From Nitrospirota bacterium (GTDB taxonomy: Bacteria > Nitrospirota > Nitrospiria > Nitrospirales > UBA8639), in assembly GCA_029865515.1 (NCBI GenBank), contig JAOUGQ010000002.1, forward strand, positions 1 through 50,832: a DNA stretch of 50,832 bases, read 5' to 3'. The notes under the pieces were generated by a model that was given only the letters and a program-made list of their open reading frames with translations, searched no databases and was not told the origin of the DNA. Shown in pieces: positions 34,621 through 42,887 of this stretch. How positions within the stretch are numbered: the first letter of the stretch is position 1; every line of letters starts with the position of its first letter. Position numbers and translations under genes: made by a program.

Positions 34621-34836
34621 ATGTTTATGAAAATCGTCGTGAATGGAGAGCATCAGGAGGCGGAAGAACCTTTCACGGTTACCCAACTTCTTCAAAAGCT
34701 CAATCTCCGTTCAGACCAAGTCGCAGTAGAGATCAACCTCAAAATAGTGGACCGCGGCGACTTCCCCACTTGGAATCTTCATGACGGGGACACGGTTGAA
34801 ATTTTAAGTTTCATCGGAGGCGGTTCTCCCGCCTGA
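34621..34836 (+). CDS. thiS: Sulfur carrier protein ThiS
   Basis: [28 protein letters not shown]-terminal [13 protein letters not shown] with GG. Probable start is the second Met (34627). Confidence 0.88.
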
Positions 34837-34855: not shown

Positions 34856-35627
<772 letters not shown>

Positions 35628-36461: not shown

Positions 36462-38144
36462 ATGGGAATTCGTAAATCAGACGAACATATCCGTGAGATT
36501 GAGAAATTACGGACCGAGATTGAATCCATGGAACTCGAAATGCGGCAACTCCATGAATCCCGGCATAAGTTACACCTTTCTCAGCGCCAAAATGAGCAGT
36601 TGGTTACCACCCTTCAGGAAGCCAAAGCCCAAATCGAAGCCCTTCGAAAAGAAGTCGATAAACTCACAGCCCCTCCCTCGACCTTTGCCGTCTTTTATAA
36701 CACCAATGAGGACGGAACCGTGAATGTCTCCCTCGGCGGAAGAAAATTGCGGGTCAACCTTCATCCGTCCATTCAGCCGGAATCACTCAGAAAAGGCCAA
36801 GAGGTCATCGTGAACGAAGGCCTCAACGTCATTGAAGCTCGCGGGTATGATCCGCAAGGCGAAATCGTGCACCTCAAGCAACTCTTAGAGGATGGGCGCG
36901 CCGTCGTCAGCCTCCATTTAGATGATGAGCGAGTGGTCGAAGTCTCCGATGCCCTCAAACAGCAGGACTTGAGTGTAGGTGACCACCTGCTCTTTGAACC
37001 CCGTTCCGGGTACCTCATCGAAAAACTTCCAAAAGGTGAAATGGAAGAACTCGTGATCGAGGAAGTTCCAGATATTAACTATGACCAAATTGGCGGGTTA
37101 GCAAAAGAGCTGGAACAGGTGAAAGACGCCGTCGAATTACCATTTCTTTATCCTGACCTTTTTGCAGAACACCGTTTATCTCCACCAAAGGGCCTTCTCC
37201 TCTACGGTCCACCGGGCTGCGGGAAAACCCTGATCGCCAAAGCTGTGGCAAACTCCATCGCCAAAAAACTCGGACACCTCAAAGGCAAAGACGTTCGAAG
37301 TTACTTCCTTCATATCAAGGGGCCCGAGTTACTCAACAAATACGTCGGTGAGTCCGAGCGTCAAATTCGCGAAGTGTTTGCGAAAGCGAAAGAGAAGGCT
37401 TCTCACGGCAATCCTGTCATCGTATTCTTTGATGAGATGGATGCGTTGTTCCGGACAAGAGGGACGGGAATTTCTTCCGACATTGAATCCACCATCGTTC
37501 CCCAATTTTTATCCGAAATCGATGGAGTGGAGAGCCTTCGAGACGTCATCGTCATCGGTGCCAGTAACCGACAAGATCTGATTGATCCAGCGGTCTTGAG
37601 ACCCGGACGCCTGGATATCAAAATCAAGATCCCAAGGCCAGACAAGCAGAGTGCCAAGGATATCCTAGGAAAATATCTTCTCTCAGACCTTCCTCTTGCC
37701 GAAGCCGAGATGGCCCAGCATAGTCATGATCGGGAAGCGTTCGTCCGGCACCTCATCGAGACCACAATAGAAGCGATGTATGCCCTGACGGAAGAAAATC
37801 AATTTCTAGAAGTCACCTATGCCAATGGTGAAAAAGAAACCGTGTATTTCAAAGATTTTGCCAGTGGCGCCTTGATCGAAAGTGTCGTCTCACGGGCTAA
37901 AAAACTGGCCATCAAGCGCGCAATTTCCGGTGGGGACAAAGGCCTCAAAAGCGATGACTTTTTGCGTGGCATCCGGGAAGAATTCAAGGAACAGGAAGAT
38001 TTACCCAATACCACCCATCCGGATGATTGGGCTAAAATTGCAGGCAAAAAAGGCGAAAAAATCGTGCATGTGCGCACCTTAACCACAGATGAAGATTCAG
38101 AGCCCAGAGAAATAGAAACCATCAGCGTCGGGCATTACTTTTAA
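36462..38144 (+). CDS. arc: Proteasome-associated AAA ATPase ARC/Mpa
   Basis: N-terminal coiled coil, OB domains, Walker A GPPGCGKT, Walker B VIVFFDEMD, C-terminus GHYF with penultimate Tyr. Confidence 0.95.
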   Translation: MGIRKSDEHIREIEKLRTEIESMELEMRQLHESRHKLHLSQRQNEQLVTTLQEAKAQIEALRKEVDKLTAPPSTFAVFYNTNEDGTVNVSLGGRKLRVNLHPSIQPESLRKGQEVIVNEGLNVIEARGYDPQGEIVHLKQLLEDGRAVVSLHLDDERVVEVSDALKQQDLSVGDHLLFEPRSGYLIEKLPKGEMEELVIEEVPDINYDQIGGLAKELEQVKDAVELPFLYPDLFAEHRLSPPKGLLLYGPPGCGKTLIAKAVANSIAKKLGHLKGKDVRSYFLHIKGPELLNKYVGESERQIREVFAKAKEKASHGNPVIVFFDEMDALFRTRGTGISSDIESTIVPQFLSEIDGVESLRDVIVIGASNRQDLIDPAVLRPGRLDIKIKIPRPDKQSAKDILGKYLLSDLPLAEAEMAQHSHDREAFVRHLIETTIEAMYALTEENQFLEVTYANGEKETVYFKDFASGALIESVVSRAKKLAIKRAISGGDKGLKSDDFLRGIREEFKEQEDLPNTTHPDDWAKIAGKKGEKIVHVRTLTTDEDSEPREIETISVGHYF

Positions 38145-38174
38145 CCATGTTCTGCTGCTCTCCATGAGGTCTCC

Positions 38175-39650
38175 TTGCTGCGAATCCTTGGAACTGAAAC
38201 TGAATTCGGGATTATTGCCCGCTCCCCCGGCAACCCTGATCCCGTGGCGAACTCTCTTCGTTTAATCAGTCACTGTCCCCATCTTCCCGCTCCAACCGCC
38301 CTGTGGGATTACGAAAACGAAAATCCGTTCCTGGATGCCCGCGGTTTTCTGGTCGAAGGCGAACCCGAGCGGCCGGGCTCCAGCTATAATCGTCAACTCA
38401 ACAAAATCCTACCAAATGCCGGGCGCCTCTACGTCGATGGGGCCCACCCGGAATATTCTACCCCCGAATGCAGCAATCCTCGTGAAGTCGTCGCCTATGA
38501 GCGAGCCGGCGACCACATCGTAGCCGAGTGTTTGGCCAACCTGAACGGCAGCTTGGGAGACGAGGAATTTCTGGTCTACCGCAACAACTCTGATGGAAAA
38601 GGCAACAGCTTCGGATACCATGAAAATTATATTTTGTCCCGCCAGATTCCATTTGAGCATGTGGCAGCGGTCCTCCTCCCTTTCTTTGTCTCACGGCCAA
38701 TCTTTTGTGGCGCGGGGAAAGTCGGAGCGGAAAACGGCACAGATCCCATTGCCTATCAAATCTCTCAGCGTGCCGATTTCTTTGAATGTCTGCTGGATCT
38801 CAATACGATGGTGAATCGTCCACTGATCAACACCCGTGACGAACCCCATGCCCATCAATCCCATTACAGGCGCCTCCACGTCATCGTGGGAGACGCCAAT
38901 ATGTCGGAAGTATCGACCTTTTTAAAAGTCGGCACCACCGCCATCATTATGGACATGCTGGAACATCGAGGGCCTCTTCCTCATATTGAATTGGCCGATC
39001 CCGTCAAGGCAATCAAGGAGGTATCACGGGATCTTGCCGTAAAATCCTCGCTACCCCTTCACAATGGGCAACACACCTCTGCCATTGCCATTCAGCGGGC
39101 ATTTCTTCAATCAGCCCATGACTTCTATCGGACCAGAGAATTATCCCCTATGACCAAAGAAGTCCTGATCCGCTGGGAATCAGTATTAGATACCTTAGAA
39201 CGCGATCCCTTCGAACTTCGACGCGAAGTGGATTGGGTCGCGAAACATGCATTGATTCGGTCCTATATGGATCGGAAGCAATGCTCCTGGAAAGATCCAC
39301 GGGTTGCGATGATGGACTTGCAATATCATGATGTGCGTCAAAACAAAGGGTTGTACTACACATTGGAACGGACCGGCCAAATGGAACGCCTGACGCTCGA
39401 TCAGGAAATCGAACGGGCTCGACAGGCCGCCCCGACCCTTACCCGTGCTTTTTTCCGTGGCGAATGCTTAAAATGGCTCCCACGCCAGGTGTACGGCATG
39501 AGCTGGACTTCCGTCCTCCTTGATTCAGGAAACTCCACCATCAAGCGTATTCCCCTGATGGATCCATATCGTGGCACCCAACAGCTCACGCAAGAATTGT
39601 TTCAGGACATTACGTCGGTGGATCAGTTATTATCCCGACTCGGGAATTAA
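38175..39650 (+). CDS. dop: Dop-like depupylase/deamidase, Pup-ligase superfamily
   Basis: MLRILGTETEFGIIARSPG, HPEYSTPECSNPREVVAYERAGD, NNSDGKGNSFGYHENY, NTRDEPHA; TTG start. Confidence 0.93.
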   Translation: MLRILGTETEFGIIARSPGNPDPVANSLRLISHCPHLPAPTALWDYENENPFLDARGFLVEGEPERPGSSYNRQLNKILPNAGRLYVDGAHPEYSTPECSNPREVVAYERAGDHIVAECLANLNGSLGDEEFLVYRNNSDGKGNSFGYHENYILSRQIPFEHVAAVLLPFFVSRPIFCGAGKVGAENGTDPIAYQISQRADFFECLLDLNTMVNRPLINTRDEPHAHQSHYRRLHVIVGDANMSEVSTFLKVGTTAIIMDMLEHRGPLPHIELADPVKAIKEVSRDLAVKSSLPLHNGQHTSAIAIQRAFLQSAHDFYRTRELSPMTKEVLIRWESVLDTLERDPFELRREVDWVAKHALIRSYMDRKQCSWKDPRVAMMDLQYHDVRQNKGLYYTLERTGQMERLTLDQEIERARQAAPTLTRAFFRGECLKWLPRQVYGMSWTSVLLDSGNSTIKRIPLMDPYRGTQQLTQELFQDITSVDQLLSRLGN

Positions 39651-39696
39651 CGAATGAGGCCAGGAATACTTTCTATAGGGCATCTTTGAGGTCGGC

Positions 39697-40536
39697 ATGC
39701 ATTCTGACAACATCTCGTTCCCACATTTTTCCGCTGACCCCTGTTCCAGTTTTTATCAATACCTCGCATCGCAACGACCCGAATTGCTCCCCATGGCGCG
39801 GTGGGGAACTCTCCTTCCCCAACAAGGGTTGGCGGATTCTCCATTGACTTCCAAGCACCTCCCCTGGCCCCACGGCACGACCGTTCTGGCCTTCACCTTT
39901 CAAAATGGCGTAGCAATCGCCGGGGACCGCCGCGCCACCGAAGGGTATCAAATTGCGGCCAACCGAATGGAAAAGGTGTTTCAAACCGATGACTATTCGG
40001 CCATGGCTATTGCCGGAGCTGCCGGCCCCTGCGTGGAAATGGCTAAACTTTTTCGGATCGAGCTGGAACACTATGAAAAACTTGACGGACAACCCTTAAC
40101 CTGCGAAGGGAAAGCCAACAGGTTGGGACATATGGTTAAGGCTAATTTTCCCATGGTTTTGCAGGGACTCGTGGTTATTCCGCTATTTGTGGGCTATGAC
40201 CATAAGCGAGAAATCGGACGGCTCTTCAAATATGACATTACGGGGGGACGGTACGAGGACACCGAATTTCATGCCGTCGGTTCCGGCGGAAAAGATGCTC
40301 GATCGACTTTAAAAGAGTATTGGAAAAAAAATTTGTCGGAGGACGAAGCCGTCAGTATGGCGCTTCGAGCCTTACTCAATGCCGCAGAAGAAGATGTCGG
40401 CACCGGGGGACCAGATCTGCTTAGACGGATATTCCCGACCGTTAAATTGGTTGATCGCCAGGGAGTTCGGGATGTGGAGGAACCACAGTTAGCTGCGGTG
40501 TGCGAAGCATTATTAAACCAGCAACAGGAGACTTAA
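39697..40536 (+). CDS. prcB: 20S proteasome beta subunit PrcB with propeptide
   Basis: FYQYLASQRPELLP propeptide; HG-TTVLAF processing site with Thr61; GDRRATEGYQI; GTGGPDLLRRIFPTV. Confidence 0.95.
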   Translation: MHSDNISFPHFSADPCSSFYQYLASQRPELLPMARWGTLLPQQGLADSPLTSKHLPWPHGTTVLAFTFQNGVAIAGDRRATEGYQIAANRMEKVFQTDDYSAMAIAGAAGPCVEMAKLFRIELEHYEKLDGQPLTCEGKANRLGHMVKANFPMVLQGLVVIPLFVGYDHKREIGRLFKYDITGGRYEDTEFHAVGSGGKDARSTLKEYWKKNLSEDEAVSMALRALLNAAEEDVGTGGPDLLRRIFPTVKLVDRQGVRDVEEPQLAAVCEALLNQQQET

Positions 40537-40539
40537 ACA

Positions 40540-41223
40540 GTGGCCCTGCCCTATTACGTTTCACCCGAACAAATGATGCAAGACCGGGCGGAGTATGCCA
40601 AAAAAGGCATTGCTAAAGGCCGCTCAATCATCGCCATGGAATATTCGGATGGAGTGTTGTTTGTGGCCGATAACCCTAGCGCTTCTCTGTTTAAAATCTC
40701 TGAGATCTATGACAGCATCGCCTTTTCCGGCGCTGGGCGATACAGCGAATTTGAAAATCTCCGGAAAGCCGGCATTCAACATGCCGACGTCAAAGGCATG
40801 ATGTATAGCCGAGAGGATGTGACTGCACGATCACTAGCTAATGGCTATTCGCAAATTCTTGGCACCCTCTTTAGCCAGGAAATGAAACCCTACGAAGTGG
40901 AACTGCTCTTGGCTCAGGTCGGGGAGACACCCGAACGCAATGAGTTATACCGAATTTCGTTTGATGGCAGTATTGTAGATGAACGAAAATTTACCGCCAT
41001 CGGGGGACGATCCGAAGCCATATTGACCTTACTTCGAAAAGAAACTTCTGAAACGTGTCCGTCTCTAAAAGAGGCCTTAACACTATGCCAACACGCCTTT
41101 GAGCGTGGCGCTGATCCCAAATCCAGCCTGGAAGGCCTGGAAGTCGCCCTCCTTGACCGCACACGAAAAGGTAGAAAGTTCCGCCGGGTTCCGACTCCCG
41201 AAGCCTCCCAAATTCTGGCTTAA
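40540..41223 (+). CDS. prcA: 20S proteasome alpha subunit PrcA
   Basis: YYVSPEQMMQDRAEYAKKGIAKGRSIIAMEYSDGVLFVADNPS; immediately follows prcB; GTG start. Confidence 0.94.
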   Translation: MALPYYVSPEQMMQDRAEYAKKGIAKGRSIIAMEYSDGVLFVADNPSASLFKISEIYDSIAFSGAGRYSEFENLRKAGIQHADVKGMMYSREDVTARSLANGYSQILGTLFSQEMKPYEVELLLAQVGETPERNELYRISFDGSIVDERKFTAIGGRSEAILTLLRKETSETCPSLKEALTLCQHAFERGADPKSSLEGLEVALLDRTRKGRKFRRVPTPEASQILA

Positions 41224-41510
41224 TCCTCCCCGTCCCTGCTCTGTCCCTCAGTTGAACATTAATTGATGGCGGTGTATTCTGATTAGAGGGATTGTGAAAA
41301 ATTCCCAATGGTTTTAAGAGCAATCCATTCCAAGAGTCCCCATAAAATAAACAAGGAATTTCTTAAGAAGACGGTTGAGAAAGACTGCGCAAAACAAAGA
41401 GGATGAGATAAACAGATTGGTAGGGTGAGGCCTTCGAGCGAGGAGGAGAACGCCGGTGATGGATTTTCCATCATTTCCTTGAGGGCCTTGGAGGAAGGAA
41501 ACCTCCGGGT

Positions 41511-42887
41511 ATGATGAAACGAATCGTTGGCCTTGAAAGTGAATACGGCCTGACATTTTCGCCAAATGGGCGAGTCTATCTTCCCATTGAAAAAATCCTC
41601 GGTTACATTTTTGAGGGACTCATCCCCAATAGCTGGCCCTCGAATGCCTTTCTGACCAATGGGGCACGATTCTACCAGGACACCGGCTGCCATCCTGAAT
41701 ATTCCACTCCCGAATGCGATGACCTGATTGATCTCATCATCCACGACAAAGCGGGAGAGCGTATTTTAGAAAGTTGTCTCCCCATCGCCGAGGAACGCTT
41801 ACGTGAAGAAGGGCTTTCCGGCGAAATTTTTATATTCAAGAACAATACGGATTCCCTCGGCAACACCTACGGTTGTCATGAAAATTTCCTCATGCGCCGG
41901 GATGTGGACTTTTGGAAAGTCAGTGAACAGCTCATCCCTTTTTTCGTAACCCGCCAAATTTTTTCGGGAGCCGGAAAAATTCTTAAAGTGTCGGGGAAGT
42001 CCCAATTTTTCATCTCCCAACGCGCTCAGCATATCCACGAAAAAACATCATCCTCCACCACGTCCTCCCGCAGCATCATCAACACACGGGACGAACCGCA
42101 TGCCGACGCGGAAAAATTCCGTCGGCTTCATATCATTCTCGGCGATTCCAATATGTCTGAATTTTCCACCTATTTGAAGGTGGGAACGGCAATGATCGTA
42201 CTCTCAATGATCGAAGAAGGATTCACCATCCCTCATATTGAGTTAGAAGAACCTGTCAAAGCCATTCGAGACATCTCCCGCGATCCTACCCTGAAGAGGA
42301 CGATCAAACTGGAAGATGGGCGAAACCTGAGCGCATTAGAAATTCAACGAATTTTCTGGGAGCGGGCTGGTGAGTATTTAGAATCGCAACCTCCGAATAA
42401 AGTGATGTCAGAGATCCATTATGAATGGGGTCGAGTTCTGAACCTGCTTGAAGTTTCGCCAATGAAACTGGTTCGGGAAATCGACTGGATCACCAAACAA
42501 TGGCTCTTAGAAAACTACATGGCCAATAAATCCTGTGGATGGGATGACCCCCGATTGGGCATGATGGACCTGCAATACCATGACATTAATCGACAGCGAA
42601 GCCTCTTTCATCTGTTAGCTGAACGAAATCACATCAGGAAAATGGTTGATGAGGAGGCAATTGAGCAAGCAAAAACGATTCCTCCTCAAACCACACGGGC
42701 AAAGGTGCGGGGGGATTTCATCAGATTTGCCCGTGCAAAAAATCGGTCGTATACTGTGGATTGGACCTATCTCAAACTAAACGGATACTGGGAAGAAACC
42801 ATTCTCTGCATGGATCCTTTCTGTCCTTTTAACCGACGGGTGGAAGAATTGCTCAGCCAAGTTCCCCACAGCCGGCTCTATCCATGA
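41511..42887 (+). CDS. pafA: PafA-like Pup/UBact ligase
   Basis: MMKRIVGLESEYGLTFSPNG, NGARFYQDTGCHPEYSTPECDDL, FKNNTDSLGNTYGCHENFL, NTRDEPHADAEKFRRLHIILGDSNMSEFSTYLKVGT. Confidence 0.95.
   Translation: MMKRIVGLESEYGLTFSPNGRVYLPIEKILGYIFEGLIPNSWPSNAFLTNGARFYQDTGCHPEYSTPECDDLIDLIIHDKAGERILESCLPIAEERLREEGLSGEIFIFKNNTDSLGNTYGCHENFLMRRDVDFWKVSEQLIPFFVTRQIFSGAGKILKVSGKSQFFISQRAQHIHEKTSSSTTSSRSIINTRDEPHADAEKFRRLHIILGDSNMSEFSTYLKVGTAMIVLSMIEEGFTIPHIELEEPVKAIRDISRDPTLKRTIKLEDGRNLSALEIQRIFWERAGEYLESQPPNKVMSEIHYEWGRVLNLLEVSPMKLVREIDWITKQWLLENYMANKSCGWDDPRLGMMDLQYHDINRQRSLFHLLAERNHIRKMVDEEAIEQAKTIPPQTTRAKVRGDFIRFARAKNRSYTVDWTYLKLNGYWEETILCMDPFCPFNRRVEELLSQVPHSRLYP

Follow-up and report, generated by a model that had tools for sequence, protein, structure and literature searches.

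A Nitrospirota proteasome cluster and its displaced pup gene

The bacterial proteasome and its protein modifier Pup have been described as tightly linked in the genome: Pup was stated to be invariably adjacent to a gene of the PafA family (Iyer et al. 2008, PMC2588565), and the gene order of the locus to be rigidly conserved (Barandun et al. 2012, PMC3511204). The latter study also reported that Leptospirillum ferrooxidans has two full systems (L1 and L2), the second with a tag that lacks the GGE terminus. The Pup-proteasome system of Actinobacteria (Mycobacterium, Corynebacterium) shares with the locus described here the order ARC/Mpa, Dop, PrcB, PrcA and PafA, and in both the Pup protein carries a GG[EQ] C-terminus.

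A proteasome locus without a tag gene

We analysed a stretch of 50,832 nucleotides (contig JAOUGQ010000002.1 of assembly GCA_029865515.1, hereafter the window) from a Nitrospirota bacterium of the order Nitrospirales. A complete bacterial proteasome locus (system 1) occupies positions 36462-42887 of the forward strand in the order ARC-Dop-PrcB-PrcA-PafA, and all five genes score above the curated NCBIfam cut-offs: the ARC/Mpa proteasomal AAA ATPase (36462-38144; TIGR03689, 733 bits), the Dop depupylase/deamidase (38175-39650; TIGR03688, 508.5 bits), the 20S beta subunit PrcB (39697-40536; TIGR03690, 293 bits), the 20S alpha subunit PrcA (40540-41223; TIGR03691, 297.5 bits) and the Pup ligase PafA (41511-42887; TIGR03686, 554.7 bits). 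An alignment with 4b0t, a Pup ligase of solved structure, spans the length of PafA (450 residues, E=7e-113). The gaps between ARC and Dop (30 nt), Dop and PrcB (46 nt, 39651-39696), PrcB and PrcA (3 nt) and PrcA and PafA (287 nt, 41224-41510) are identical in size to those of a preliminary description of the locus, which had seen no modifier gene in any of them. The empty 46-nt gap is the site of pup in relatives of the phylum outside the order.

That reading of the cluster holds. At E<=10, neither the Pup (PF05639) nor the UBact (NF033388) profile matched anywhere in the window, so that the match inside the cluster that could have overturned it was looked for and is absent. The window contains 1004 stop-to-stop frames with lengths of 30-200 aa; 5 of them end in G[EQ], approximately as expected by chance, and no such frame lies inside the cluster, the 287-nt gap included, which rules out an overlooked overlapping ORF.

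Upstream of the cluster, two thi genes lie on the same strand. The ThiS product (34621-34836) ends in GGGSPA, with residues beyond the usual GG terminus, and the ThiS proteins of relatives end in GGGSPT and GGGTSPYL. A frameshift near 35241-35260 interrupts the thiG gene (34856-35627); a sequencing or assembly error is likely, because two relatives have thiG intact in one frame.

The pup gene and its displacement across the order

A six-frame search of the whole genome with the Pup and UBact profiles, as the preliminary description had proposed, returned matches (E<=10) on two contigs only, Pup on C3 and UBact on C225. Exactly one Pup is encoded, on the minus strand of C3 (G000:C3:17501-17704). 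Its product, MDKQDRKYDSRKTSSPKESENVQADPKVAETGQRLKEEMDDLVDEIDKVLEENAAEFVKNYVQKGGE, is 67 aa long and has the C-terminus QKGGE; it matches PF05639 with 75 bits (E=2.6e-20, cut-off 27), passes the Pup C-terminal model TIGR03687 with 60.9 bits and matches Pup chains in solved structures. The genome thus holds a Pup with the GGE/GGQ terminus of a Pup-proteasome system; adjacency of pup to dop or prcB, which is usual and inessential to the mechanism, is absent here and throughout the order. A rel/spoT gene follows pup after 353 nt, a tRNA-Val and a gene for a TPR lipoprotein occupy the opposite flank, and a strong Shine-Dalgarno sequence (AAGGAGG) precedes the ATG of pup; a search for operon signals at pup found no sigma-70 or terminator pattern exceeding chance. 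The preliminary description had left three options: a tag encoded elsewhere, a highly diverged tag, or another modifier. A well-conserved and unlinked Pup bears out the first, and neither of the other two is needed for the cluster of the window.

Since the assembly consists of 513 contigs with an estimated contamination of 4.8%, the placement of pup on C3 rests on relatives. The draft state of the assembly could suggest that the Pup contig is a contaminant and that the organism itself has lost Pup, but pup is present, one copy each, in 47 of the 50 genomes of the family, and two single-contig genomes of the same genus (G029 and G030) show the same pup-rel order, their rel genes sharing 94-95% identity with the one on C3. 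Given these relatives, we regard contamination as a negligible prospect.

The displacement is a property of the whole order. In a phylum-wide sample of 148 genomes, pup lies within 1.5 kb of the window-type beta-subunit gene (prcB1) in 27 of the 28 genomes outside the order, the sole exception being a fragmented assembly with the two genes on separate contigs; the neighbourhoods outside the order read dop-pup-prcB-prcA, one Leptospirillum genome included. Inside the order, pup is displaced in all 37 genomes that have both genes: the two are either 45 kb to 1.4 Mb apart or on different contigs. Where the contigs are long enough, most of the displaced genes precede rel by about 2 kb, and recJ stands between the two in both loci that were examined closely. 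In the genus of the window the gap is short and pup directly precedes rel; the other genera read carry pup-recJ-rel. The simplest reading is a single move, in the ancestor of the order, to a spot beside recJ-rel. Alternatively, pup may have been lost and then re-acquired elsewhere, and 67 residues are too few to separate the two histories. Our searches of the open-access literature turned up no account of a pup gene displaced in this way.

Two further observations concern the distribution of pup. At three Methylomirabilota loci (L136, L143 and L150), pup occurs without proteasome genes in the available flank; a beta subunit is on a separate contig in two of these three genomes, and at the one Methylomirabilota pup locus read, pup stands beside mogA. 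This separation may be an independent move. The Nitrospirota genomes G117 and G153 each gave two pup matches, located on separate contigs.

The second system and the tag of the cluster

The UBact gene belongs to a second cluster and not to that of the window. On C225 (NF033388, E=7.7e-20), it lies between the end of a Dop-like gene and a second prcB-prcA pair; contig C181 carries ARC2-Dop2, and the single-contig genome G029 has the full arrangement ARC2-Dop2-UBact-PrcB2-PrcA2-PafA2. All 30 UBacts of the family that were read end in [RK]QRTGE. Among complete one-contig genomes, G029 carries both Pup and UBact, and G013 Pup alone. The ARC and the beta subunit of the second system (G000:C181 and C225; L063, L069) do not reach the cut-offs of TIGR03689 and TIGR03690, respectively.

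In the phylum sample, the two tags follow the two beta subunits strictly. Pup accompanies the beta type of the window (beta1) in 65 of 65 genomes, and UBact the second type (beta2) in 53 of 53; the 19 genomes with Pup and no UBact all lack beta2, and the 6 with UBact and no Pup all lack beta1. In the ligase tree, Dop1 and PafA1 nest among the Dop and PafA proteins of Pup-linked clusters, with the enzymes of the second system apart; the PafA clade is fully supported and the root weakly. Because of this co-occurrence and this branching, an ordinary Pup-proteasome system accounts for the locus, and a lost or novel modifier is needless. We therefore hold with high confidence that the cluster belongs to a standard Pup-proteasome system, that its pup gene has moved out of the dop-prcB gap, on the simplest account in a single event in the ancestor of the order, and that UBact serves the separate cluster. 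The identity and the place of both modifiers, the displacement throughout the order and the strict co-occurrence are direct observations; the biochemistry and the specificity of tag for enzyme are what we infer from these patterns.

Other explanations have to meet the same data. A novel or highly diverged modifier hidden in or near the cluster has the empty gaps in its favour and nothing else: the window yields no profile match, the cluster holds no frame with a suitable end, and a textbook Pup in the genome makes a diverged tag unnecessary, so that we give this idea almost no credence. It is slightly less improbable, and still very unlikely, that the systems share their tags, UBact from the second cluster also being a substrate of PafA and Dop of the window. 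The presence of both modifiers in one genome and the homology of PafA1/Dop1 with PafA2/Dop2 (about 33-43% identity) speak for such sharing. However, UBact sits within its own complete cluster, system 1 persists with Pup in genomes that lack UBact, only system 2 persists in those that lack Pup, and the enzymes of system 1 group with Pup-linked ones. On the strength of the co-occurrence, we reject UBact as the tag of the cluster in the window.

Judging by the families of its components, the standard Pup-proteasome system would work as follows. PafA of the window would ligate the 67-aa Pup to lysines of target proteins, with direct ATP-dependent activation of Pup, because it already ends in Glu; Dop would remove Pup from targets; and ARC would bind the tag and feed the substrate into PrcAB for degradation. 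With pup separate from prcBA, the supply of the tag could be controlled on its own, although no regulatory signal was found at the gene. A more daring reading, which we consider unlikely, is that one cell runs two tagging-proteasome systems with crosstalk between their tags, ligases or 20S subunits, and that relocation placed pup under rel-linked (stringent response) control.

Comparison with described systems

An unknown modifier is no longer needed to explain the cluster, and those genomes of the order that encode both a Pup and a UBact system allow a direct test of tag specificity. A UBact system as described by Lehmann et al. (2017, cited in PMC12751074) makes up the second cluster of this genome, with a UBact ending in RQRTGE between dop2 and prcB2; the cluster of the window is a different one. 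Compared with Actinobacteria, pup is unlinked and near rel instead of between dop and prcB, and Pup already ends in GGE, so that deamidation by Dop before ligation should be needless. The order is thus an exception to both the adjacency stated in PMC2588565 and the rigid order stated in PMC3511204. It parallels the two-system L. ferrooxidans of the latter study, with two whole clusters in one Nitrospirota genome and a second tag without GGE; however, both tags of L. ferrooxidans lie inside their clusters, whereas the Pup gene of our organism lies outside. Two parallel systems were already reported in 2012, and what is new here is only the relocation of pup across the order.
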